A stretch of 48,471 bases of DNA. Source: Bacteroidota bacterium (GTDB lineage: Bacteria; Bacteroidota; Bacteroidia; 2-12-FULL-35-15). The notes below the pieces were generated by a model. It did not search any database, was not told where the DNA came from, and worked only from the letters and a program-made list of their open reading frames with translations. Each line of letters begins with the position of its first letter. The first letter of the stretch is position 1. The translations under genes were made by a program, and so were the position numbers. Shown one piece after another: positions 3,281 to 42,650 of the stretch. The stretch spans positions 1 to 48,471 of the forward strand of contig PLYN01000055.1 in the NCBI GenBank assembly GCA_003151815.1, in the 5' to 3' direction.

Positions 3281-4031
3281 ACTTACTATTATAATTATTC
3301 AATTCATTCTGAATAATATCATGAACTCTTGTTCGCAAAGATACTAAATCATTTGCGGTCATTCCAAGTGTGGAAATGGGTTCATGCACGACCACTTTTG
3401 ATATTCCCGGTTGCCCGTATGTTCGCGTTAAAACGCCATTTTGAAAAATTTTCCAATTGTTTAAAAAGGTGATTGGGATAACCGAAACCTGCTTTTCAAT
3501 TGCTAATTTAAAGGCTCCATTTTTAAAATTATGCAGCTTTCCGGTATTCGATAATATTCCACCTTCAGGGAAAAGAAAAATGCTATTTCCCTTGTCAATT
3601 TCTTGCCCGGCGCGTATAAATGCTTTGTGTGAACCTGTTATACTTTTTCGATCAACGAGGATATTCATCTCTTTAAAAAATCTACGAAATAAAGGGACTT
3701 TGTCCAGCTCTTTTTTACCCATTGAAACAAAATAATTAGGTATAATAAGATAACCGGCAATTACGTCTAAGTATGATGCATGATTAGCGCAATATACAGC
3801 AGGTTGAGGCAGTTTGTTGGCAGGTGTAATGTATTTAACTTTTGTAATAATGCCAGGAACAATAAAGAGCCAGCGCGACCAGATTTTTTTTAACCGAAAT
3901 GCTTTTGAAAACCATTCCTTTTTTGAAAGTAAAATATAAAATAACGGATATAGTATAATTAAACTAAATATGAAATTTAGCATAAACAGGGCTTTCCATA
4001 ATATACGAGGTATGATTTTAAGTAATTTCAT
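3267..4031 (-). CDS. 1-acyl-sn-glycerol-3-phosphate acyltransferase (PlsC family)
   Basis: This membrane enzyme probably acylates lysophosphatidic acid to phosphatidic acid in phospholipid synthesis. The 254-residue protein has an N-terminal hydrophobic segment (about residues 12-35), the catalytic HX4D motif (His84 to Asp89, NHASYLD) and the glycerophosphate-binding FPEGG motif further on. A predicted promoter lies 65 bases upstream, and the 3' end overlaps gatC. The family is certain; the acyl acceptor is inferred from the family, and other lysolipid substrates are possible. Confidence 0.9.
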   Translation of the reverse strand: MKLLKIIPRILWKALFMLNFIFSLIILYPLFYILLSKKEWFSKAFRLKKIWSRWLFIVPGIITKVKYITPANKLPQPAVYCANHASYLDVIAGYLIIPNYFVSMGKKELDKVPLFRRFFKEMNILVDRKSITGSHKAFIRAGQEIDKGNSIFLFPEGGILSNTGKLHNFKNGAFKLAIEKQVSVIPITFLNNWKIFQNGVLTRTYGQPGISKVVVHEPISTLGMTANDLVSLRTRVHDIIQNELNNYNSKYENR

Positions 4032-4128: not shown

Positions 4129-5109
4129 TTAAACTTCTCTCACCATAAGGCTGTCAGCAATAGTGATCAGATTTTCTTTTTTCATTTTGTTTACGGGTAT
4201 ATTTTCGAGAAATGTGAGTGCGGTATCGTAATGCTTTTTCATTTCGTTACGAGCAAGTTCTTTTATATTTAAAAAATTATAGATAGAAGTAATCGCTTCT
4301 ACTTTTTCTTTTGGAACAAACTGTGGAGCATGGATCCATTGATGTAATTCTTCCTTCAAATATCGATTGCTATCAGCCATTTCCATTGCTTTTAAAAGCA
4401 GGTATGTTTTTTTATTAGAAACGATATCACCGCCTTTTTGTTTGCCAAACTTTTCAGTGTCTGCATATACATCCAATATATCATCTTGCAATTGAAATGC
4501 TATTCCTATGTGTTTTCCGAATTCGTAAAGTAATTGTGCATTTATTTCATCGGCGCCTCCAATTAATGCGCCCATCTCAAGACTGCCACCAAGTAATACG
4601 GCAGTCTTCAATTCTATCATTTTTAAGTATTGAGGTATCGAAACCTTTGCAAGTTTTTCGAAGTTCATATCCAACTGTTGTCCTTCGCATACTTTAATAG
4701 CTGTGTTACTAAATATTTTTAATAATTGTGGAAGTATGTCTGTGTTATATTTACACAACTCTTGATATGCTTTTATCATAATTGCATCACCACTTAAAAT
4801 GGCAGTGTTCTCATCCCATTTTTCATGAACTGTACTTTGATTTCTTCTTAAAGGAGCCTTATCCATTATATCATCATGCACTAACGTGAAGTTGTGAAAT
4901 AATTCAATTGCGAGTGCAGGGTGGATCGCGTTAGATGTATCACCTCCAAAAAAATCACAACCTACAAAAACAAAGACGGGGCGCATTCGTTTACCTCCCA
5001 ATGACATAATGTATTCAATAGGTTCGTAAAGTTCCTTCGGATTTGAGCCGTATTTTTTATTTTTTAAAGCAAGCTCAATTTGTTGCTGAAAGTCGGTGAT
5101 CGTTTCCAA
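4129..5109 (-). CDS. Polyprenyl synthetase (trans-isoprenyl diphosphate synthase)
   Basis: It condenses isopentenyl diphosphate onto allylic diphosphates to make an isoprenoid chain. Both aspartate-rich Mg-binding motifs are present: DDIMD at residues 79-83 with the following RR, and DDILD around residue 209. Length (326) and the GGKRMRP motif fit the family. The start appears to be TTG at 5109; the frame is closed three codons further upstream by the epimerase stop, so only ATT or TTG is available. The 6-base gap to the epimerase gene suggests one transcript. Chain length (farnesyl/geranylgeranyl versus longer) cannot be settled by eye. Confidence 0.92.
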   Translation of the reverse strand: METITDFQQQIELALKNKKYGSNPKELYEPIEYIMSLGGKRMRPVFVFVGCDFFGGDTSNAIHPALAIELFHNFTLVHDDIMDKAPLRRNQSTVHEKWDENTAILSGDAIMIKAYQELCKYNTDILPQLLKIFSNTAIKVCEGQQLDMNFEKLAKVSIPQYLKMIELKTAVLLGGSLEMGALIGGADEINAQLLYEFGKHIGIAFQLQDDILDVYADTEKFGKQKGGDIVSNKKTYLLLKAMEMADSNRYLKEELHQWIHAPQFVPKEKVEAITSIYNFLNIKELARNEMKKHYDTALTFLENIPVNKMKKENLITIADSLMVREV

Positions 5110-5115
5110 AATGTT

Positions 5116-6051
5116 CTATAAAATAAATTGAGTGTTTTCTAAAACTTTTTTTAATCCATCTTCCAAAGAAATCAATTCACGATTTAGTAATTGTTTCATT
5201 TTGGTTATATCCGGGTTTCTTCTTGACATATCACCGTCTTCTAATGCCTGAATATGCGTTATTTTTGAGCTGGAATTAGTTGCTTTAATAATTGTTTGTG
5301 CTAATTCCAAGATAGTTATTTCTTCATTTCCACCTACGTTGACCACATCGTTGACAAATTTATTTTCATAAAATGCATTGGTCGTTGCTTCAATATTATC
5401 ATCAATATAACAAAATGTGCGGGTTTGTTTTCCGTCACCATAAATGGTAATATCCTTATTTTTCAGTGCACTTGAAATAAATTTTGAAACAACAAAATCT
5501 TTACTTTGTTTTTGTCCGTAGGTATTAAAAAATCGAAAAATGGTATACTCTAAATCATATTCTTTTTTAAATGATTTAAGATACGCTTCACCAACATTTT
5601 TAACAATGGCATATGGCAAACGCGAATTTAAAGGAGTCGTTTGTTCATTCTGAGGAAACTCAACGGGTTCTCCGTATACCTCAGATGATGATGAGAAGTA
5701 TACGCGTTTTACACCTGTATTTTTTGAAAGATTCAATACATTTTTAATTCCCGAAATATCATCCAGCACACGCACTGGATGTTCCTGTGTTCTGCTGACA
5801 CCCACCATTGCAGCATAATGAAAAACATAATCAAATGAGTAAGCATAAAAAACGCTTGATATATCTCCGAATTCGTTTACATTACACTTAATAAATTTAA
5901 TATTATTGTGAATAGACGTAGGTACCTTTTCCAAGCTGCCGGTAAGTAAATTGTCTACTATAACAATTTGATGATTGGCATTTTCAGCAAGTTTTTCTGC
6001 TAACGCACTTGGTATAAATCCTGCTCCTCCGGTTATTAATATTTTAATCAT
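5116..6051 (-). CDS. NAD-dependent epimerase/dehydratase (nucleotide-sugar SDR)
   Basis: An extended short-chain dehydrogenase acting on nucleotide sugars, probably UDP- or dTDP-hexoses for surface polysaccharide, given the upstream rfbA. It has the N-terminal Rossmann motif TGGAGFIPS (residues 7-15), catalytic Ser122 in SSSSEVYGE, and the YxxxK pair Tyr147/Lys151. The third glycine of the usual GxxGxxG is a proline (residue 14). Length (311) is normal. 4-epimerase versus dehydratase activity cannot be decided from the sequence alone. It is the second gene of the rfbA-epimerase-polyprenyl synthase string. Confidence 0.88.
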   Translation of the reverse strand: MIKILITGGAGFIPSALAEKLAENANHQIVIVDNLLTGSLEKVPTSIHNNIKFIKCNVNEFGDISSVFYAYSFDYVFHYAAMVGVSRTQEHPVRVLDDISGIKNVLNLSKNTGVKRVYFSSSSEVYGEPVEFPQNEQTTPLNSRLPYAIVKNVGEAYLKSFKKEYDLEYTIFRFFNTYGQKQSKDFVVSKFISSALKNKDITIYGDGKQTRTFCYIDDNIEATTNAFYENKFVNDVVNVGGNEEITILELAQTIIKATNSSSKITHIQALEDGDMSRRNPDITKMKQLLNRELISLEDGLKKVLENTQFIL

Positions 6052-34082: not shown

Positions 34083-36182
34083 TTATGCCAACTGATTTTC
34101 CCTGTATTTTTTTGATGTCTCAACAAATTGTTTCGCATCACTCAAAAATTTCTCAGCAAATTGTTTCGTTGGTTCATTTTCATTGATCCTTAAAACATAC
34201 GTTTTGAAATCAGTTGGGAAAGTAAACAATCCTTTTGAAACATAATGTTTATCAAAATCATTGAGAATACCGATCTGTGTGTTGCACATCACTTCCTTAT
34301 CAATTAATAGTGCTTTTGCTGTGCTAACAAAGAAACTATACGTATTATAAATGCTATCGGCATATTGCCCGGCAGCAAGTGTTTCCTTTGCCCATTCTAA
34401 TTTTTCCTCAGCTTCAAATAATAAAGTAGAAACTAGATCGATCATTACACCTGCACATTCTCCAACACCGATCGCTGTTTCAAATTGCACATCATGTCCC
34501 CAATCAATATACTCATCCGGAGTTAAGGTGGTAAGATCTTTTAACGGTTTTAACAAATTATAGAAATATTCTTTGCCTAAACGATCGTAATAATTGTTAA
34601 AATATTCTCCCTCATTACCATTGTTTTCGTAATCGTTCAAGATCATACTAAGTGCGGTAGTACCACGTTTGCTTGGTACTTTGATCACTTTGTCCGCCAT
34701 ACGTCCTTCACCATTACCCAATGTTCCGCCACCAAGTAATACTTGTAAAGCAGGAACGGTATTGGCTCCTACTTTAAGAGAACTTCCGTGAAAGCCAATA
34801 TTGGCAATAGTATGTTGTCCGCAGGCATTCATACATCCGCTGATCTTAATTTTGATATCATTATTTTTTATCATGTCAGGGAATTCATGACGAATCACTT
34901 TTTCAAGTGCTTCAGTAGCGCCTGTACTGCTTGATATACCAAGGTTACAGGTATCTGTTCCAGGGCAAGACGTAATATCAAATGTTTTGTCAAACCCGGG
35001 TTCCGCTAAGCCAATTGCTGATAATTCGGTATAAATATTCGGTAACGCTTCCTTAGGAACAAATTTTAAAATCAGTCCCTGGTTGATGGTCACCCGTATA
35101 TCGTCTGCCGCATATTTTTTTACGATATCGGCAAGTTTGCGTGCTCTCTCCGTTTTAAGATCTCCGTTTATTACTTTTAAACAAACCGCATAATAACCTT
35201 TTTGTTTTTGTTCAAACACGCTGGTCTCCAACCAAAGATCGTAAGCTGCCTTATCTTTTATTTCAACAGGTGTGGTTACAACATTGGTTGGTGGCTCCGT
35301 TTGTTTGTAGTTTTTGTAATCTATCTTGAACGATTTTACTTTATTAGCTGTTTTTTCTTTCTCTACCAATTCCATAAAAGAGTCATAGCCTATTTTGTTG
35401 ATCAAAAATTTCATACGGGCTTTACTACGTGTGTTACGCTCACCATGACGATCGAATACACGCAACGATGCTTCAATAAATGGTATGATCAGATCTTCGC
35501 CTAAAAACTCATAAGCTGTTTTTGCTAAAAATGGTTGGCTACCCAATCCGCCACCAACAAGCACTTTGAAGCCTCGTACTTCAGCACCATTCTCGATTTT
35601 TAATTTTGGAATGAAGCCAAAGTCATGCATATACGTGAGTGCAGTATCGCTTTCGCTGGAGGAGAACGCAATTTTAATTTTACGTCCCATATCCTGACAA
35701 ATAGGATTACGCAAGAAATATTCAAATACGGCATGTGCATATGGACACACATCAAACGCTTCATTCGGATCAATTCCTGCATTGTATGATGCAGTAACAT
35801 TTCTTACCGTATTTCCACACGCTTCACGTAATGTGATATTGTCTTTCTCCAATTCTGCCCATAGTTCAGGGGTACGTTCCAAACTCACGTAATGTATTTG
35901 AATATCCTGACGGGTAGTTAAATGTAAATTTTTTATTGCGTATTCATCGGATACATCGGAGATCTTCAGCATTTGTTTCACCGACATTTTCCCGTAAGGC
36001 AATTTGATACGGATCATCTGAACGCCTTGTTGACGTTGACCATAAACACCTCTTGCCAAACGCAGACTTCTGAATTTTTCTGAATCCAATGTGCCATCTC
36101 TAAATAGGCGGATGGATTTTTCCAATTGTATAATGTCTTTTTCTACAATTGGATTTTCTAATTCTGTTCTGAAACTTTGCAT
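34083..36182 (-). CDS. Ferredoxin-dependent sulfite/nitrite reductase with C-terminal HEPN-like extension
   Basis: Reduces sulfite to sulfide with six electrons on a coupled siroheme-[4Fe-4S] centre. The 699 residues contain two half-repeats (about 40-270 and 310-545), cluster ligands Cys406, Cys412, Cys450 and Cys454 (SCPGTDTCNLG and GCMNACGQH), and the siroheme Arg-rich patch LHLTTRQDIQIHY. Operon context with cysHDN argues for sulfite rather than nitrite. Residues about 580-699 are extra: an all-helical segment (EAEEKLEWAKETLAAGQYAD, then YSFFVSTAKALL) resembling a HEPN domain. It is the last gene of the operon. Confidence 0.92.
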   Translation of the reverse strand: MQSFRTELENPIVEKDIIQLEKSIRLFRDGTLDSEKFRSLRLARGVYGQRQQGVQMIRIKLPYGKMSVKQMLKISDVSDEYAIKNLHLTTRQDIQIHYVSLERTPELWAELEKDNITLREACGNTVRNVTASYNAGIDPNEAFDVCPYAHAVFEYFLRNPICQDMGRKIKIAFSSSESDTALTYMHDFGFIPKLKIENGAEVRGFKVLVGGGLGSQPFLAKTAYEFLGEDLIIPFIEASLRVFDRHGERNTRSKARMKFLINKIGYDSFMELVEKEKTANKVKSFKIDYKNYKQTEPPTNVVTTPVEIKDKAAYDLWLETSVFEQKQKGYYAVCLKVINGDLKTERARKLADIVKKYAADDIRVTINQGLILKFVPKEALPNIYTELSAIGLAEPGFDKTFDITSCPGTDTCNLGISSSTGATEALEKVIRHEFPDMIKNNDIKIKISGCMNACGQHTIANIGFHGSSLKVGANTVPALQVLLGGGTLGNGEGRMADKVIKVPSKRGTTALSMILNDYENNGNEGEYFNNYYDRLGKEYFYNLLKPLKDLTTLTPDEYIDWGHDVQFETAIGVGECAGVMIDLVSTLLFEAEEKLEWAKETLAAGQYADSIYNTYSFFVSTAKALLIDKEVMCNTQIGILNDFDKHYVSKGLFTFPTDFKTYVLRINENEPTKQFAEKFLSDAKQFVETSKKYRENQLA

Positions 36183-36250: not shown

Positions 36251-36601
36251 CTATTCAATATGTAAGGTACCTTTTTTTGCCAATAATTCTTCTTTACTTT
36301 CACGCCAGTTCTCATCATCAACACAGCAGTCTACCGGACAAACAGCAGCACATTGCGGCTCATCATGAAAGCCAACACATTCTGTGCATTTATCCGACAC
36401 GATGTAATAAAGATCCATCGACACGGGTGTTTCCGGAGCATCAGCATCAACAGTTAATCCGCTTTTTGACGTGAACATTCCTTTTACAGTTGTTCCATCA
36501 GAAAAACGCCATTCGCTGCCACCTTCATATATCGCATTGTTCGGACATTCAGGCTCACAAGCTCCACAATTTATACATTCCTCTGTTATTTTAATCGCCA
36601 T
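36251..36601 (-). CDS. 4Fe-4S dicluster ferredoxin
   Basis: A 116-residue electron carrier. The first cluster motif is [12 protein letters not shown] (residues 9-20), the second [18 protein letters not shown], with an 8-residue insertion between its second and third Cys, as in Alvin-type 2[4Fe-4S] ferredoxins. It also has an unusual loop between the motifs (about residues 28-68). Position directly before the sulfite reductase gene suggests it is the low-potential donor to that enzyme. Confidence 0.94.
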
Positions 36602-36693: not shown

Positions 36694-37011
36694 TTAAGGA
36701 ATCAAAATTTTAATATCCTTTAATTTTTTATTTAATTTTATTTGACATGATAACCTTGAATTATCATAGATCACAGGTAATGTTTCTAAGATCGCAAATT
36801 CATCATCACTTTGCTCATCCAGTGATGGTGAGCACTCTAGCACCCGTACATGACAAGTTGCACACAAAGCTAATCCTCCGCAAGTTCCTTCAATTTGTTC
36901 ATAGTCATTTGCATTTAAAAATTCCATCAGGTTTAAACCCATATCATTGGGAACTTCCAGAACTACTTCTTCATCATTATGAACTATGGTCAATTTTATA
37001 TCTTTTTCCAT
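36694..37011 (-). CDS. [2Fe-2S] ferredoxin (adrenodoxin type)
   Basis: A 105-residue ferredoxin with the ligand pattern C-x5-C-x2-C (CGGLALCATC) and a distal Cys (RLSCQIKL), as in adrenodoxin/ISC-type proteins. It starts 3 bases after the stop of the FNR gene, so it is co-translated with its likely reductase and should accept electrons from it. Confidence 0.94.
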   Translation of the reverse strand: MEKDIKLTIVHNDEEVVLEVPNDMGLNLMEFLNANDYEQIEGTCGGLALCATCHVRVLECSPSLDEQSDDEFAILETLPVIYDNSRLSCQIKLNKKLKDIKILIP

Positions 37012-37014
37012 TTT

Positions 37015-38025
37015 TTAAAAGGCTGAAACACCACTTACTGTTGTATATTTCATTGTGTATTTTGCTTCCGGATTAATGTATTTATAAGCGCTGTGAGCCA
37101 TCAATGCCGCTTCGTGGAAACCACATAAAATTAATTTTAATTTATTTTTATACGTGTTGATATCACCAATGGCATAAATTCCCGGGATGTTGGTTGAGTA
37201 GTCATCCGTATTTACTTCAATTGCATTTTTTTCGATGTTCAAACCCCAGTTTCCTATTGGTCCTAACTTTGGACTTAATCCGAAAAGTGGAATTAAATTA
37301 TCCGCATCAATTTTTTGAATCTCATTTGTTTTTGTATTTAAAACAGTTACGATATCCAAATTATCTACACCAAAAACTTCCTGCAAATTAGAGTTTAACA
37401 ATACAGTAATTTTTTTCTCTTCAGCCAATTTTAAAGCTGTATTTACGCTGTGTGGCGCCGCTCTGAATGATTCACTGCGGTGAACAAGTGTAACCTCCGC
37501 TGCAATATCAGCAAGGAAAATAGCCCAATCCAATGCGCTATCACCACCACCTGCAAGCACTACTTTTTTACCTCGATATTTTTCAGGATCAAGTATCATA
37601 TAACTAACACCTTTACCATTTTCATATTTATCAAGATTGATTACTTCAGGTTTACGTGGTTCAAAACATCCCAATCCACCTGCAATCACAATAACTTTAG
37701 CATGAATCGTTGTTCCCAAATGTGTGGAAAGAACAAAATCTTTTTCACCATTTTTTGTTAACGTTTCAATACGTTCACCAAATGTATAAGATGGTTTAAA
37801 GGGCTCTGCCTGTTTTAATAAATTATCTACCAGTTCCTGCGCTCCAACAGTGGGAAAGCCGGGAATATCATAAATAGGTTTTTTAGGATAGATCTCGGAA
37901 AGTTGTCCACCTGCCTGAGGCAAATAATCTACTAAATGGCAACGTAATTTTAATAATCCAGTTTCAAAAATTGCAAATAATCCCACCGGACCTGCACCTA
38001 TTATTGCTATATCAGTTTCTATCAT
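37015..38025 (-). CDS. Ferredoxin-NADP+ reductase (thioredoxin reductase-like type)
   Basis: A 336-residue FAD enzyme that moves electrons from NADPH to ferredoxin. The FAD motif DIAIIGAGPVGLFAIFE is at the N-terminus and the NADPH motif VVLAGGGDSALDWAIFLAD is near residue 160. The CxxC redox pair of true thioredoxin reductases is absent, which marks the TrxR-like FNR group. It is embedded in the sulfate operon with two ferredoxins, which points to supplying sulfite reductase. Confidence 0.94.
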   Translation of the reverse strand: MIETDIAIIGAGPVGLFAIFETGLLKLRCHLVDYLPQAGGQLSEIYPKKPIYDIPGFPTVGAQELVDNLLKQAEPFKPSYTFGERIETLTKNGEKDFVLSTHLGTTIHAKVIVIAGGLGCFEPRKPEVINLDKYENGKGVSYMILDPEKYRGKKVVLAGGGDSALDWAIFLADIAAEVTLVHRSESFRAAPHSVNTALKLAEEKKITVLLNSNLQEVFGVDNLDIVTVLNTKTNEIQKIDADNLIPLFGLSPKLGPIGNWGLNIEKNAIEVNTDDYSTNIPGIYAIGDINTYKNKLKLILCGFHEAALMAHSAYKYINPEAKYTMKYTTVSGVSAF

Positions 38026-38036
38026 AATCTTTTTGA

Positions 38037-38195
38037 GTTTGAAAGTTTAAAGTTTGAAAGTTCAAAGTTTAAGTACTTGGTTAATTATTCGTTATTCGTT
38101 TTTTTTAATCTATTAATCTTCATCAGCACATCATTCGTTTTAATCTTCAATCTGTAATTTTCCAATCAGCACATCAAAAAATCAGCACATCAATT
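38037..38195. repeat. Two repeat families between cysN and the FNR gene
   Basis: AGTTTAAAGTTTGAAAGTTC units lie near the FNR start (38040-38070), and CATCAGCACATCATT and ATCAGCACATCAA units lie near the cysN stop (38119-38192). The second family is the same as upstream of polA. Both are degenerate and do not code. Confidence 0.7.
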
Positions 38196-39435
38196 ATTGA
38201 ATCATACACGCTGCCACGGTCGAGTTACTTGTTTCATCGATCAATATGGCACATCCGTTTACTTTTAATTTTGTGAAAGAATCAAAAGCAATTGGTGATG
38301 CTGTTTTTATTTTCACTCTTACTAAGTCATTTAATCCGCCTTGTTCCGGCGATGGTTCCTTCACCATCGTGTTCACATCAATTTTGTATTCGATTGTTTT
38401 TACAACACTTTTAACTCTGCGACTTCCTATTTGCAATAAATATTTATTTCCAGGAACAAGCGACTGATTGCTCATCCAGCATAACACCACTTCAAAATCT
38501 TGTCCCACCTGAGGCAATTTTCCGCTATTTACGATCATATCGCCACGGCTAATATCTACATCACTTTCAAGATGAAGAACAACGCTTTGTGGCGCAAATG
38601 CTTCCTCTTGTTCAACAGAAGCAACTTCAATTTTCCTGATCCTGCTTTCTACTCCTGAAGGTAGAACAGTTATTTTATCATTCTTACGATAGATCCCACT
38701 TATAATTTTTCCTGCATACCCTCTGTAATCACGCAATTCCTCAGTTTGTGGACGAATTACAAATTGAACCGGAAACCTTGGATTCTCCAGATCAATGTCT
38801 TCGTCGAGTTTTACGTTCTCTAAATATTGCAACAATGTTTCTCCTTTATACCAGACAAGTTTTTGTGATCTGTCTACAATGTTATCGCCCTTTTTAGCGC
38901 TGATGGGAATGAAAGTTACTTTTTTAATTCCTATTAATGCGGCAGCCTTTTCGTAATCACTTACAATTTTAGTATAAACCTCCTCCGAATAATTTACCAG
39001 ATCCATTTTGTTTACAGTAACCACAATGTGTTTTATTCCAAGCAAAAATGCGATGATCGAATGACGTTTGGTTTGTTCTACAACACCGTTTTCAGCATCG
39101 ATCAAAATAATTGCAAGGTCCGAATTAGACGCTCCTGTCACCATGTTCCGGGTATATTGAATATGTCCCGGTGCATCTGCAATGATAAACTTTCTGGTTG
39201 GCGTTGAAAAATATTTATAAGCAACATCAATCGTGATCCCTTGTTCACGCTCAGCACGTAACCCGTCAGTAAGTAGGGCCAGATCAATTTCGCCCTCTTC
39301 CATATTTTTGCTTTGTTTCTCGATCGCCTTCAGTTGATCTATCATGATCGATTTGCTATCATGCAGCAAACGACCTATCAATGTGCTTTTCCCATCATCA
39401 ACACTCCCGGCGGTTATAAATCTTAATATATCCAT
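38194..39435 (-). CDS. cysN: Sulfate adenylyltransferase GTPase subunit
   Basis: With CysD it makes adenosine 5'-phosphosulfate (APS) from sulfate and ATP, driven by GTP hydrolysis. The 413-residue EF-Tu-like protein shows the P-loop GSVDDGKST (residues 10-18), DAPGH and NKMD. There is no C-terminal APS kinase domain and no cysC nearby, so sulfate should enter at the APS level, in line with the CysH type. Shorter than E. coli CysN, normal for this phylum. Confidence 0.96.
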   Translation of the reverse strand: MDILRFITAGSVDDGKSTLIGRLLHDSKSIMIDQLKAIEKQSKNMEEGEIDLALLTDGLRAEREQGITIDVAYKYFSTPTRKFIIADAPGHIQYTRNMVTGASNSDLAIILIDAENGVVEQTKRHSIIAFLLGIKHIVVTVNKMDLVNYSEEVYTKIVSDYEKAAALIGIKKVTFIPISAKKGDNIVDRSQKLVWYKGETLLQYLENVKLDEDIDLENPRFPVQFVIRPQTEELRDYRGYAGKIISGIYRKNDKITVLPSGVESRIRKIEVASVEQEEAFAPQSVVLHLESDVDISRGDMIVNSGKLPQVGQDFEVVLCWMSNQSLVPGNKYLLQIGSRRVKSVVKTIEYKIDVNTMVKEPSPEQGGLNDLVRVKIKTASPIAFDSFTKLKVNGCAILIDETSNSTVAACMIQ

Positions 39436-39446
39436 TTTTTAAAAAA

Positions 39447-39530
39447 TTATTGATTTGTTGATTTGGAGAATGGGAGAATTTTATTAAACTCTCTATTTCT
39501 CCATTTCTTTAATTCTCTATTTCTTTTTGT
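39447..39530. repeat. Inverted GGAGAATGGGAGAA repeat between cysD and cysN
   Basis: GATTTGGAGAATGGGAGAAT (39458-39477) is mirrored by CTCTATTTCTCCATTTC units at 39490-39527. It is the same family as the rfbA-MMPL gap. Confidence 0.65.
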
Positions 39531-40441
39531 TAAAAGTACCCGCCTTTTTTTCTGTCTTCCATTGCAGCTTCCGAAACCTGGTCATCAATGCGTGTTTGAC
39601 CGCGTTCAGAAGTTTTAGTAATGATAATATTACTGATAATATCTTCTATCGTAGTAGCATCCGATTCTACTGCTGCTGTACAAGTCATGTCACCAACAGT
39701 ACGGTATCTGACTTTTCTTTTGCTGATCTTATCTCCCGCTTCAATTTTAATAAAATCATTTACGAACATCAATTGTCCATTGTAATCAAGTACTTCACGC
39801 TCATGCGAGAAATAAATGGAAGGCAATTCAATTTTTTCGCGAAGGATATAATTCCAGATATCAAGTTCCGTCCAGTTGCTGATAGGGAATACTCTCACGT
39901 TTTCACCTTGATGTATTTTACCGTTGTATGTATTCCATAGTTCAGGTCTTTGAAGCTTAGGATCCCATTGTCCGAATTCATTTCTAACAGAAAATATTCT
40001 TTCTTTTGCTCTTGCTTTTTCTTCGTCTCTTCGCGCTCCGCCAAGGCAAGCATCAAAACCAAATTCCTCAATTGTTTCAAGCAACGTAAATGTTTGAAGT
40101 CCGTTTCTGCTTGGGAATTTACCTTTTGTCTCCGTCAGATTTTGACGTTTTATAGTATCTTCTACACTACGCACAATTAATTTCTCGCCTAATTTTTTTG
40201 CAAGATAATCTCTGAAATCAAGGGCTTCCTGAAAATTGTGACCGGTATCAATGTGTACCAAAGGGAATGGAAATTTGCCCGGGCGAAATGCTTTTAAAGC
40301 AAGGTGAACCATTACAATCGAATCTTTACCACCTGAAAAAAGCATGGCAGGTTTTTCAAATTGTCCTGCTACTTCACGCATAATGTGAATCGACTCGGAT
40401 TCCAATTGTTCTAAAAAATCTAAATGATGTTTACTCTTCAT
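39530..40441 (-). CDS. cysD: Sulfate adenylyltransferase subunit 2
   Basis: Catalytic ATP pyrophosphatase subunit of ATP sulfurylase. The PP-loop SGGKDS is at residues 36-41, with the conserved GGARRDEEKARAKERIFS stretch and LDIWNYI further on. 303 residues, ending in the typical KKGGYF. It starts at ATG and is followed by cysN after a repeat-filled gap. Confidence 0.97.
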   Translation of the reverse strand: MKSKHHLDFLEQLESESIHIMREVAGQFEKPAMLFSGGKDSIVMVHLALKAFRPGKFPFPLVHIDTGHNFQEALDFRDYLAKKLGEKLIVRSVEDTIKRQNLTETKGKFPSRNGLQTFTLLETIEEFGFDACLGGARRDEEKARAKERIFSVRNEFGQWDPKLQRPELWNTYNGKIHQGENVRVFPISNWTELDIWNYILREKIELPSIYFSHEREVLDYNGQLMFVNDFIKIEAGDKISKRKVRYRTVGDMTCTAAVESDATTIEDIISNIIITKTSERGQTRIDDQVSEAAMEDRKKGGYF

Positions 40442-40500: not shown

Positions 40501-41235
40501 TTATTTTGCTCCGCCAGGAGCCGTTTGTTCATGCAATCCACATTCTTTTTTACTATCATCTTCCCACCACCAGCGTCCGGCACGGAAATCCTCACCGGTC
40601 TGAATTGCTCTGGTACAAGGCAAACATCCAATACTCACAAAACCTTTGTCTTGCAAGGTGTTGTAAGGTATATTGTTTTTTGTAACATAGGCTCTCACTT
40701 CTTCAGTTGTCCAATGCAAAATCGGATGGAACTTGATCAGTTGATGACCTTCATCCCATTCGATCATTTGCAGATCCTGACGGGCAGCCGAATGCTCTGC
40801 TCTCAATCCGGTGATCCACAGATCTTGTCCTTTCAATGCACGTTTCAGAGGTTCTACCTTTCTGATATGGCAACACAGTTTACGATTGTCAACCGATTCA
40901 TAAAAAGCATTCGGACCTTTTTCTGTTATGTAATTTTCCAGCGTTTTAAAATCCGGAGTGAATGCTTTGATCTGTGTTTTATAGCGTTCGTTGGTGCTGC
41001 TCCAAACCGAATATGTTTCCGGAAAAATGCGTCCGGTATCCAAGGTGAAAATATCAACCGCGATTTTATTTTGAAGAATAGCATGAGAGATCACCTGGTC
41101 TTCCAGACTGAAACTAGTAGAAAAAACGGTCTTTCCGGCAAACTTATCTGCTAATAATTTAACGGCAGAATCCATATCAAGCCCCTTGATCAGGCTTAAT
41201 AATTGGGGGATTTCCGATCTTATATTCGAGTTCAT
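40501..41235 (-). CDS. cysH: Assimilatory APS reductase (CysH family, [4Fe-4S] type)
   Basis: Reduces adenylyl sulfate to sulfite in the cytoplasm. The 244-residue protein has the Cys pairs Cys121-Cys122 and Cys204/Cys207 (GCLPC) that bind a [4Fe-4S] cluster, and the catalytic ECGLH with Cys232. These cluster cysteines mark the APS-using form, in agreement with the lack of an APS kinase. It is the first gene of the operon. Its expression is predicted to depend on the upstream leader peptide and terminator. Confidence 0.95.
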   Translation of the reverse strand: MNSNIRSEIPQLLSLIKGLDMDSAVKLLADKFAGKTVFSTSFSLEDQVISHAILQNKIAVDIFTLDTGRIFPETYSVWSSTNERYKTQIKAFTPDFKTLENYITEKGPNAFYESVDNRKLCCHIRKVEPLKRALKGQDLWITGLRAEHSAARQDLQMIEWDEGHQLIKFHPILHWTTEEVRAYVTKNNIPYNTLQDKGFVSIGCLPCTRAIQTGEDFRAGRWWWEDDSKKECGLHEQTAPGGAK

Positions 41236-41254
41236 TTTATGTTCTTATTAATGT

Positions 41255-41285
41255 AAAAAACCCTTCGGTCTACCGAAGGGTTTTT
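41255..41285 (-). terminator. Intrinsic terminator in the cysH leader (attenuator)
   Basis: In the transcript, CCCTTCGG (41280-41273) pairs with CCGAAGGG (41268-41261) around a 4-base loop, extended by A/T pairs and followed by six U. It ends 20 bases before the cysH ATG, so it cannot be a terminator for any gene other than by blocking entry into the operon. A competing pairing is described under the antiterminator entry. Confidence 0.9.
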
Positions 41286-41333
41286 ATTATGTGATGAGTT
41301 AACTATTCAATTCATTATAATAAACGCCCTTCG
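41274..41333 (-). promoter_or_regulatory. Predicted antiterminator pairing
   Basis: Leader RNA segment CGAAGGG (41333-41327) is exactly complementary to CCCUUCG (41280-41274), the 5' arm of the terminator. Two bases further, UUUAUUAU (41324-41317) is exactly complementary to AUAAUAAA (41290-41283). The result is 15 base pairs with a 2x2 internal loop, mutually exclusive with the terminator. The first strand lies inside the leader ORF near its stop codon. Confidence 0.75.
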
Positions 41334-41392
41334 CTGTTATACACAGCATTATTCATTTTACAACACTTCTTATTTTGAATACTTAAGTTCAT
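41315..41392 (-). CDS. Cysteine leader peptide of the sulfate assimilation operon
   Basis: A 25-residue ORF, MNLSIQNKKCCKMNNAVYN then SEGRLL, starting at ATG 41392 and ending with TAA at 41315-41317. A weak AGAAGA Shine-Dalgarno-like run precedes it. Codons 10 and 11 (41365-41360) are tandem UGU UGU, the control codons expected if the ribosome senses Cys-tRNA. Codons 20-25 contain the antiterminator strand. A second in-frame ATG (41356) follows the Cys codons and would bypass the sensing step. No homology is claimed; the case rests on arrangement and base pairing. Confidence 0.72.
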   Translation of the reverse strand: MNLSIQNKKCCKMNNAVYNSEGRLL

Positions 41393-41433
41393 TGTCGATC
41401 TTCTTTTAAAATTCTATTAATGGATTTGGACTA

Positions 41434-41441
41434 CAAAATTA
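41434..41441 (-). promoter_or_regulatory. -7 box of the sulfate operon
   Basis: Read on the minus strand this is TAATTTTG, an exact TAnnTTTG match. Transcription would start near 41425, giving a leader of about 190 bases that contains the Cys leader peptide and the terminator. No clear -33 element. Confidence 0.55.
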
Positions 41442-41591
41442 AGTGTTTTTATTGTATCCACCTAATTTTTTTACAAAAAAATACGCATTAAAAAATCGCT
41501 GAAGAAGTTAATGATTACAGTTGTTTCGGAGGTTTAAAGTCTACTAATTTAATAGGGTTTAATCTACTATGTCTATAAAACCCATAGAACT

Positions 41592-42650
41592 TCAGTAATT
41601 TCTATCCTGCAAATATTTTTCGATCAATCTGGAAACAGCATGATCATGAATACTTTTTTTGTTGATCACCAATGCCGTTTTGGGAATGATCTTATCGAAC
41701 GGCTTCGGGCAATCGATTTCCCAGAAGCGGGCGTATATTTTTTGATGACTCAAAATATGTTTATAATTGGCGGAAACACTTCTTATGGTGTACTTATTTT
41801 TTTCAATAAATTCAATCCATTCGGTCGATCTTAAAAATTGTTCCTCTGTTAATTCCTTCTCTGTTTCGATCAACGGAAAATCATATAAATTGATCCAGAT
41901 GTCTTTTTCAACACGTTTATTTATTGCAATATTTCCATTATGATGCAATACGATATAATTGAAAAATCGATTACGCGTTTTTGTTTTTTTTGCCTTCACC
42001 GGTAATTCTGAAACTCTTTTTTTTGAATAAGCGAAACATATTGTGTTTAAAGGGCAAACCGAGCAATCGGGATTAACAGGTTTACATTGAATTGCACCCA
42101 ATTCCATGATGGCTTGATTGTGTATTGCCGGATTTTTTTTATCGATCAATTCATTCGCCAATTGATAAAATTCTTTTTTGCCTTGCGAGCTGTCAATAGG
42201 TGTTTCAATGCCGAATACTCTTGCCAATACTCGATATACATTACCATCAACAACAGCATGCGGTTTATCAAAAGCAAAAGAAGCAATTGCAGCAGCAGTA
42301 TATTCGCCAATACCCTTCAGGGATAGGATATCGGCGTATTCACTTGGAAATTTTCCTTTGTAATTATCAGTAATAATTTTAGCCGTTGCGTGTAAATTTC
42401 TTGCTCTTGAATAATATCCCAAACCTTGCCAAAGCTTCATTACCTTTTCGTTGTCGGCTTTTGCCAGATGTTTTACGCTTGGAAATTCTTTTGCAAACTT
42501 TCGGTAGTATTCCATTCCCTGATCAACTCGTGTTTGTTGCAAAATGATCTCCGAAAGCCATATCAAATAAGCATCTTTGGTATCACGCCAAGGCAGATCA
42601 CGCTTGTTTTGTTGATACCAATGAATGATTTTATTTGAGAAGTGTTTCAT
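41592..42650 (-). CDS. mutY: A/G-specific adenine DNA glycosylase
   Basis: Removes adenine mispaired with 8-oxoguanine. The 352-residue protein has catalytic Glu34 in WLSEIILQQTRVDQG, the helix-hairpin-helix LKGIGEYTAAAIASFAF with Asp135, a [4Fe-4S] loop C-x6-C-x2-C-x5-C (CKPVNPDCSVCPLNTIC), and a C-terminal NUDIX-like domain. It is divergent from HU. In related genomes it usually neighbours ssb-gldE-gldD, which here lie 13 kb away. Confidence 0.97.
   Translation of the reverse strand: MKHFSNKIIHWYQQNKRDLPWRDTKDAYLIWLSEIILQQTRVDQGMEYYRKFAKEFPSVKHLAKADNEKVMKLWQGLGYYSRARNLHATAKIITDNYKGKFPSEYADILSLKGIGEYTAAAIASFAFDKPHAVVDGNVYRVLARVFGIETPIDSSQGKKEFYQLANELIDKKNPAIHNQAIMELGAIQCKPVNPDCSVCPLNTICFAYSKKRVSELPVKAKKTKTRNRFFNYIVLHHNGNIAINKRVEKDIWINLYDFPLIETEKELTEEQFLRSTEWIEFIEKNKYTIRSVSANYKHILSHQKIYARFWEIDCPKPFDKIIPKTALVINKKSIHDHAVSRLIEKYLQDRNY

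Follow-up and report, generated by a model that had tools for sequence, protein, structure and literature searches.

Introduction

In the trp and his attenuators of enterobacteria, the position of the ribosome selects between an antiterminator and a terminator, and a comparable role for Trp is held by the Bacteroid-trp motif (RF01692). This motif is named in PMC2864571, and leader-peptide attenuation has been described for amino acid operons of F. psychrophilum, with cysteine unnamed in the accessible part of that source (PMC9723704). Poly-Cys leader ORFs precede the cys operons of Mycobacterium and P. acnes as well as B. longum cbs, and no terminator was found for these leaders (PMC1262725). 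In PMC13236596 they are cited as translation attenuators (Canestrari et al. 2020), and the title of a paper cited there describes the mycobacterial Cys leader ORFs as leaderless. The uORFC-8-2 motif found before cysS of Rhodobacterales consists of a tandem-Cys uORF, a terminator stem and a U run, and is a single motif with 145 examples in Alphaproteobacteria (PMC8632094).

Here we describe a leader on the minus strand of a 48,471-nucleotide stretch of Bacteroidota DNA (contig PLYN01000055.1, hereafter the window) that very probably acts as a ribosome-mediated transcription attenuator reading the supply of Cys-tRNA ahead of a cysH-cysD-cysN-...-sir operon. It combines the features by which attenuators are recognized, namely a cluster of codons for the pathway product in a leader ORF, a predicted intrinsic terminator before the first gene and an antiterminator that is mutually exclusive with it. 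The sequence itself establishes the ORF, its Cys codons, the terminator and alternative helix as predicted structures, their retention in the nearest relative and the recurrence of such leaders before the same pathway.

As in the actinobacterial leaders, cysteine genes in the window are preceded by a small ORF that holds consecutive Cys codons, and leaders in one family of relatives (f40) are predicted to be leaderless or nearly so. It differs from them in that its Cys pair (CC) is placed mid-ORF, in possessing an intrinsic terminator and an antiterminator, and in belonging to another phylum, and Bacteroidota leaders differ further by Met codons beside the Cys run. The window therefore falls outside the actinobacterial poly-Cys type, which has its Cys run near the stop and no conserved terminator hairpin, while relatives that have no terminator, L181 among them, are indeed similar to that type. 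With uORFC-8-2 it shares the tandem-Cys uORF followed by a terminator stem and U run, but that motif controls a tRNA synthetase gene whereas the window leader precedes sulfate assimilation and has no RNA sequence in common with it; with cysH as its first gene and a Bacteroidota host, the window is not a uORFC-8-2 member. The likeness to trp and his lies in ribosome position deciding which helix forms, and the differences are the amino acid and a small hairpin that does not exclude the antiterminator. The F. psychrophilum operons and Bacteroid-trp share both phylum and class of mechanism with the window, cysteine being unnamed in the accessible parts of those sources. A preliminary description of this locus, made from its sequence, noted that Cys-rich leaders are known in Actinobacteria, which was borne out (PMC1262725), and knew of none in Bacteroidota. 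Our search of the open-licence literature, outside which most subscription papers lie, likewise found no case of Cys attenuation in Bacteroidota; the supplement of PMC9723704 and Lopatovskaya et al. (2010) could hold one.

Leader elements and the operon behind them

The cysH to sir run is a sulfate-assimilation operon (Table 1), in which the sulfite specificity of the last protein was taken from its operon context because all of its NCBIfam matches were below cut-off. The elements listed in the preliminary description were all recovered. The TAnnTTTG element, which we take to be the Bacteroidota-type -7 promoter consensus, is present, though the -33 box is weak (TTAG near 41464). The 25-codon ORF carries UGU UGU 14 codons ahead of its stop, and the terminator hairpin (AACCC...GGGTT; -15.8 kcal/mol) is separated from the cysH ATG (41235) by 19 bases. 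The antiterminator forms 15 base pairs with one 2x2 loop, in which 41333-41327 pairs with 41280-41274 and 41324-41317 with 41290-41283. A Sigma-70 and terminator consensus scan of the window leader did not flag the terminator, which we attribute to its A and U flanks pairing and thereby consuming the U tract, and returned one promoter-like match compared to 3.5 expected. Rfam 15 produced no match at gathering threshold in the window, and the 20 matches below threshold (up to E = 10) within 41200-41600 included none that was convincing. Elsewhere in the same genome, four CC ORFs, counted irrespective of their position relative to the genes, were present in three of four cysK-like and sulfate-transporter loci.

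Table 1. Positions of the leader elements and operon genes in the window.
Feature	Position	Strand	Basis or remark
Leader region	between mutY end 41592 and cysH start 41235	-	
Near-palindrome CTATTAAATTAGTAG, possible operator	41541..41555	-	only exact copy in the window
TAATTTTG (TAnnTTTG), putative promoter element	41434..41441	-	sequence; 41 nt before uORF ATG
Leader ORF MNLSIQNKKCCKMNNAVYNSEGRLL	41315..41392 (ATG 41392, UAA 41317-41315)	-	25 codons + UAA
UGU UGU Cys codon pair, putative stall site	41360..41365	-	CC retained in L031
Met codon, second codon past CC; may signal a second sulfur amino acid	41354..41356	-	
Small hairpin GCUGU-GUAUA-ACAGC, possibly pause-like	41333..41347	-	fold
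Antiterminator 5' strand, CGAAGGG (41333-41327) + UUUAUUAU (41324-41317)	41317..41333	-	duplex vs shuffles, folds
Antiterminator 3' strand, AUAAUAAA (41290-41283) + CCCUUCG (41280-41274), overlapping the terminator 5' arm	41274..41290	-	
Predicted intrinsic terminator CCCUUCGG-UAGA-CCGAAGGG-U6	41255..41280	-	hairpin; same in L031
cysH, (P)APS reductase	40501..41235	-	PF01507, NF002537, TIGR02055
cysD, sulfate adenylyltransferase subunit	39530..40441	-	NF003587, TIGR02039
cysN, sulfate adenylyltransferase GTPase subunit	38194..39435	-	TIGR02034 over cut-off
Pyridine-nucleotide oxidoreductase, thioredoxin/ferredoxin-reductase-like	37015..38025	-	PF07992; TIGR01292 below cut-off
2Fe-2S ferredoxin-like protein	36694..37011	-	PF00111
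4Fe-4S ferredoxin-like protein	36251..36601	-	PF00037
Sulfite/nitrite-reductase (NIR_SIR) family protein, probable sulfite reductase	34083..36182	-	PF01077, PF03460

Folding of the leader and proposed mechanism

The antiterminator duplex was calculated at -18.2 kcal/mol compared to a shuffle mean of -5.9, with none of 1000 shuffles as good, and the fold of the whole leader gave z = -3.19 (1 of 200 shuffles as good). In the fold representing a stalled ribosome (masked to 41348, the RNA stopping short of the terminator 3' arm) the pairs of the antiterminator had probabilities of 0.95-1.0, the exception being C41333-G41274 at 0.06 because C41333 joins the hairpin 41347-41333, which adjoins the antiterminator and does not exclude it. 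In the fold representing a ribosome at the stop codon (masked to 41304) all eight terminator stem pairs reached 0.987-1.0. These cotranscriptional folds with the leader exposed or covered were as the preliminary description had predicted, but the finished RNA favoured the terminator even in the stalled state, where equilibrium gave the terminator approximately 0.74 and the inner antiterminator approximately 0.25 (-29.7 and -27.5 kcal/mol, respectively); in the finished RNA without a ribosome the terminator reached 0.999. This equilibrium preference indicates that the choice must fall during transcription and would be a matter of kinetics.

From these elements we infer translation of the leader, a stall, termination and relief of termination. 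Under ample Cys-tRNA the leading ribosome would reach the UAA (41317-41315) and cover the 5' strand of the antiterminator, so that the terminator (41280-41255) would form before cysH. When Cys-tRNA is scarce the ribosome would stall at 41365-41360, allowing 41333-41317 to pair with 41290-41274 once the latter is made, and the operon would be transcribed; Met-tRNA supply is perhaps read alongside that of Cys-tRNA. Since hairpin 41347-41333 is compatible with the antiterminator, a leader that is not being translated may initially be read through, unlike trp. This hairpin was absent from the preliminary description, as were Met codons and the terminator-less relatives described below. The interpretation given in that description is supported as the best available.

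Retention in the nearest relative

Among 36 genomes of the genus, a DNA-level match to the IQNKKCC portion of the leader ORF was obtained in two, that of the window and G030. By contig place and sequence, the latter corresponds to MAG contig CANFLQ010000148.1 (locus L031), which encodes a CysH 83% identical to that of the window. The L031 leader ORF (MIINIQNKKCCDIACCMLNSEGLLLS) is in frame, contains a second CC, and over IQNKKCC has three synonymous changes and zero amino acid changes. Its terminator and antiterminator strands are retained, with identities over the helix strands of 22/24 (41340-41317), 19/20 (41290-41271) and 14/14. Elsewhere identity was 25/32 from the ORF start to CC, 7/18 mid-ORF, 19/26 in the spacer and 22/50 in the 5' leader, which the end of the contig truncates in L031. 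For helix covariation, the window's own group offers these two sequences only. The CysH loci of G012 and G020, which belong to the same genus (CysH 58% identical), had no such leader.

Recurrence of Cys-codon leaders in Bacteroidota

A CysH search of 395 genomes of the class, including the window's own, matched 79 at E <= 1e-40, and 80 loci were taken for the leader count, two of them without a CysH match in a re-scan. In 32 of these 80 loci, and in 13 of 27 families, the operon run is preceded by a short ORF that starts with ATG and contains clustered Cys codons; at least one of these matches is due to chance. The f69 match (L192) is probably due to chance, and the f6 match (L153) precedes a homoserine dehydrogenase gene, upstream in the run. 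CC ORFs were present in 30 of 206 intergenic regions on the operon side in comparison to 5 of 251 other intergenic regions, and in 88 of 4120 (approximately 2%) Markov-simulated operon-side regions. Many relatives do not have the Cys-codon leader. Within 72 named contigs a CC uORF outside called genes was found in four (L031, L034 from Hydrotalea flava, L045 and, probably by chance, L074). Chryseobacterium, Dyadobacter and Capnocytophaga, which form the bulk of this set and for some of which the flank does not reach the operon start, gave no further CC leader. As similar Cys-rich leaders stand before the same pathway in many Bacteroidota, the bacteria carrying them probably sense cysteine supply through the reading speed of the ribosome on the leader. 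A separate scan of the 395 class genomes for five Cys codons plus a stop matched 155, and was not used as evidence since all 17 plus-strand matches (14 of 30 loci examined) overlapped long ORFs, meaning that the scan does not discriminate.

Family f40, in which sir is often the first gene of the operon, was analysed in depth (130 of 142 sites obtained and 129 counted, L334 being dropped at 38 bases). CC uORFs ending 60-135 nt before sir were found at 50 of 129 loci, with one on the reverse strand and 1.45 expected, and CC had the largest excess among all homodipeptides in the uORFs of this family. By genus, these uORFs were present in 19/22 (g82), 13/17 (g98), 12/20 (g68) and 0/18 (g40) loci, and their peptides share little outside the Cys run. 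Terminators were found at 44 of 54 loci with CC versus 21 of 75 without (p = 1.6e-9 with no correction for kinship). The expectation that relatives would keep their Cys codons was thus supported in that clustered Cys is kept while the peptides diverge, but the 21 terminator loci without a detected CC uORF correspond to a sign named beforehand as speaking against it; 10 of these 21 belong to g211, where the Cys pair was either lost or missed by the filters. The promoter count was limited to the 38 f40 uORFs in which no other start codon precedes the first ATG, and TAnnTTTG was located within 60 nt of 36 of them compared to 1.8 expected. Its position 4-14 nt before the ATG indicates that the message probably begins at or just before the uORF. 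In 22 of the 36 (L139, L141, L261, L270 and others) the ATG is only 4 nt past TAnnTTTG, predicting a leaderless mRNA.

Architectures and helices among the relatives

Two architectures occur when the leader sequences are compared: CC followed by an intrinsic terminator, as in the window, and an ORF ending in poly-Cys without a terminator. The 30 tabulated leaders comprised 15 with a terminator after the ORF and 13 that lack one and have their Cys codons at the end of the ORF or close to it, while L150 and L160 fit neither cleanly. The trp/his logic that had been proposed for cysteine is supported for the window, but given these 13 it is not the sole scheme.

The antiterminator was better than shuffles (p < 0.05) in 7 of 15 terminator leaders (window, L031, L139, L142, L163, L165 and L172), with a combined p of 1.8e-9 for all 15 and 9e-9 for ten leaders, one per subgroup (L031, L141, L143, L155 and L158 dropped). 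This test omits L160, whose hairpin has no U tract, and L150, which has no terminator by script and a hairpin by eye that is followed by N. Support for the alternative helix in relatives was weaker in f40, in which only 5 of 44 leaders reached p < 0.05 (combined p 0.0013 for g82, 0.017 for g68 and 0.17 for g98).

Alignment of 16 of the 22 g82 leaders identified one antiterminator pair that is G-C in nine, A-U in four and broken in three. For the antiterminator, 10 of 500 shuffles equalled the alignment in paired cells and covariation score. The double-change pair count was equalled by 349 and the pair types by all 500, leaving two of five measures no better than shuffles. The same column covaries in an overlapping terminator pair (C-G 9, U-A 5, U-G 2), a three-way variation that is expected if both helices matter, and the seven-pair terminator stem had no double change. 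The alignment omits L251, L254, L255, L257, L271 and L304, where terminators differ or no leader was found, an omission that favours the structure counted. The covariation anticipated in the preliminary description was therefore seen in one pair of each helix, but not by the other measures or in the terminator stem.

In L133 (p = 0.012), L034 (p = 0.036) and L045 (p = 0.020), pairing is possible between the Cys codons and the structural start, which suggests that stalling would open this pairing in these three leaders. The pairing was non-significant in the other 10 of 13 terminator-less leaders, and the combined p was 0.023 for the 13 and 0.08 for 9 non-redundant leaders. In L194, L198 and L203, CCCCCCC-stop uORFs were located 141-159 nt before cysH with neither a terminator nor start pairing detected, and Rho is a possible factor there.

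Methionine codons beside the Cys run

The Met count was performed on 49 non-redundant leaders, reduced from 68 by a 60% identity filter that was the sole handling of kinship, with approximately half coming from one family. Met was found at 61 of 276 positions within three residues of or inside the Cys cluster in comparison to 22 of 683 elsewhere, and ATG in the other two frames near the cluster at 5 of 552. Overall, 38 of the 49 leaders had Met by the Cys run. Counted from the first CC run, Met occupied 37/145 positions before and 23/129 after, and in 38 promoter-anchored leaders 32/114 before, 18/105 after and 15/490 far away, compared to 92/4276 in simulated CC uORFs. Met after the Cys run cannot be the start codon for that run. 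The simplest reading of this crowding is that the leaders may sample both sulfur amino acids, and a peptide-level role for the Met/Cys run is possible.

Alternative explanations

A refinement of the Cys-tRNA attenuator would have a stall at either Cys or Met relieve termination, so that the operon answers both products. The crowding of Met on both sides of the Cys run, promoter-anchored leaders included and well above the simulated frequency, argues for this refinement. The window itself, however, has a single Met, two codons past CC, Met before the run could represent alternative starts, about half of the 49 leaders come from one family with kinship handled by the identity filter, and the poly-Cys leaders L132, L137, L194, L198 and L203 have no Met beside the run. 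We consider dual sensing a genuine but tentative possibility, not quite reaching an even chance. Alternatively, control could be translational, with the leader pairing to the cysH start, a stalled ribosome freeing that start and the hairpin not being a working terminator. The start-site pairing in L133, L034 and L045 is consistent with this scheme, but 10 of 13 terminator-less leaders lacked significance, and the hairpin in the window is terminator-shaped, lies 19 nt before cysH and is overlapped by the antiterminator, making this explanation quite unlikely here.

Cys- and Met-rich runs can bind soft metals, and the nascent Cys(-Met) peptide could itself sense metal, redox state or sulfide and arrest the ribosome. 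The run, however, varies from 2 to 7 Cys with widely differing neighbours in peptides that share little else, and the controlled genes make cysteine precursors, so that we regard a peptide sensor as very unlikely. Even less credible is a metabolite riboswitch or protein-bound leader in which the ORF is incidental; the leader is structured, as its z value indicates, but it matched no Rfam family at gathering score (weak matches fell below), its ORF is under coding constraint and CC uORFs are far above chance in relatives. We give equally little credence to a chance ORF combined with the ordinary terminator of upstream mutY. The hairpin does lie on the mutY strand, about 310 bases beyond the mutY end, and CC uORFs do arise in some simulated regions, but L031 keeps all elements, the leaders recur before the same pathway, and an alternative helix is present.

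Attenuation by Cys-tRNA supply, our preferred reading, would explain, in a form open to testing, how sulfate assimilation is adjusted in many Bacteroidota. Cys-codon attenuation, as in Actinobacteria and Rhodobacterales cysS, would then reach one more phylum and include the control of sulfate assimilation by an intrinsic terminator, while Met beside the Cys run suggests that both sulfur amino acids are sensed. Searching by codon content can reveal such leaders even though their RNA and peptides change too rapidly for family models to follow. A broader proposal is that Bacteroidota sulfate assimilation is governed by class-wide, repeatedly rewired leaders that read clustered Cys and Met together, in a terminator or a start-site-pairing form and often as leaderless uORFs, and that arose independently of the actinobacterial poly-Cys leaders. 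We put this forward speculatively, judging it somewhat more apt to fail than to hold in full.

A possible operator and other Cys-rich leaders

The near-palindrome CTATTAAATTAGTAG upstream of the promoter is possibly the operator of a second, repressor-type control. L034 and L045 have motifs similar to CTATTAAATTAGTAG next to their promoters. In the Chryseobacterium herbae locus L055, cysH has an Rrf2-family gene (PF02082) directly upstream, and a palindrome similar to that of the window, CCTACTAATTTGGTAGG, lies between the two.

Poly-Cys leaders were also found in L165 (approximately 3515-3577, oriented) and in L160 upstream of 4512-5282. These two leaders, MKKFLIKYKYEYCCCCRMCRM and MHKKHKIYIKYEYCCCCMIMQSSL, are alike across two families and precede a tetrapyrrole methylase gene (PF00590) that probably serves siroheme; L165 carries another Cys leader before sir. 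In L153, a uORF ending in MCCCCCMCMC was identified upstream of 877 before the homoserine dehydrogenase gene, placing a Cys-Met run ahead of a methionine-pathway gene.
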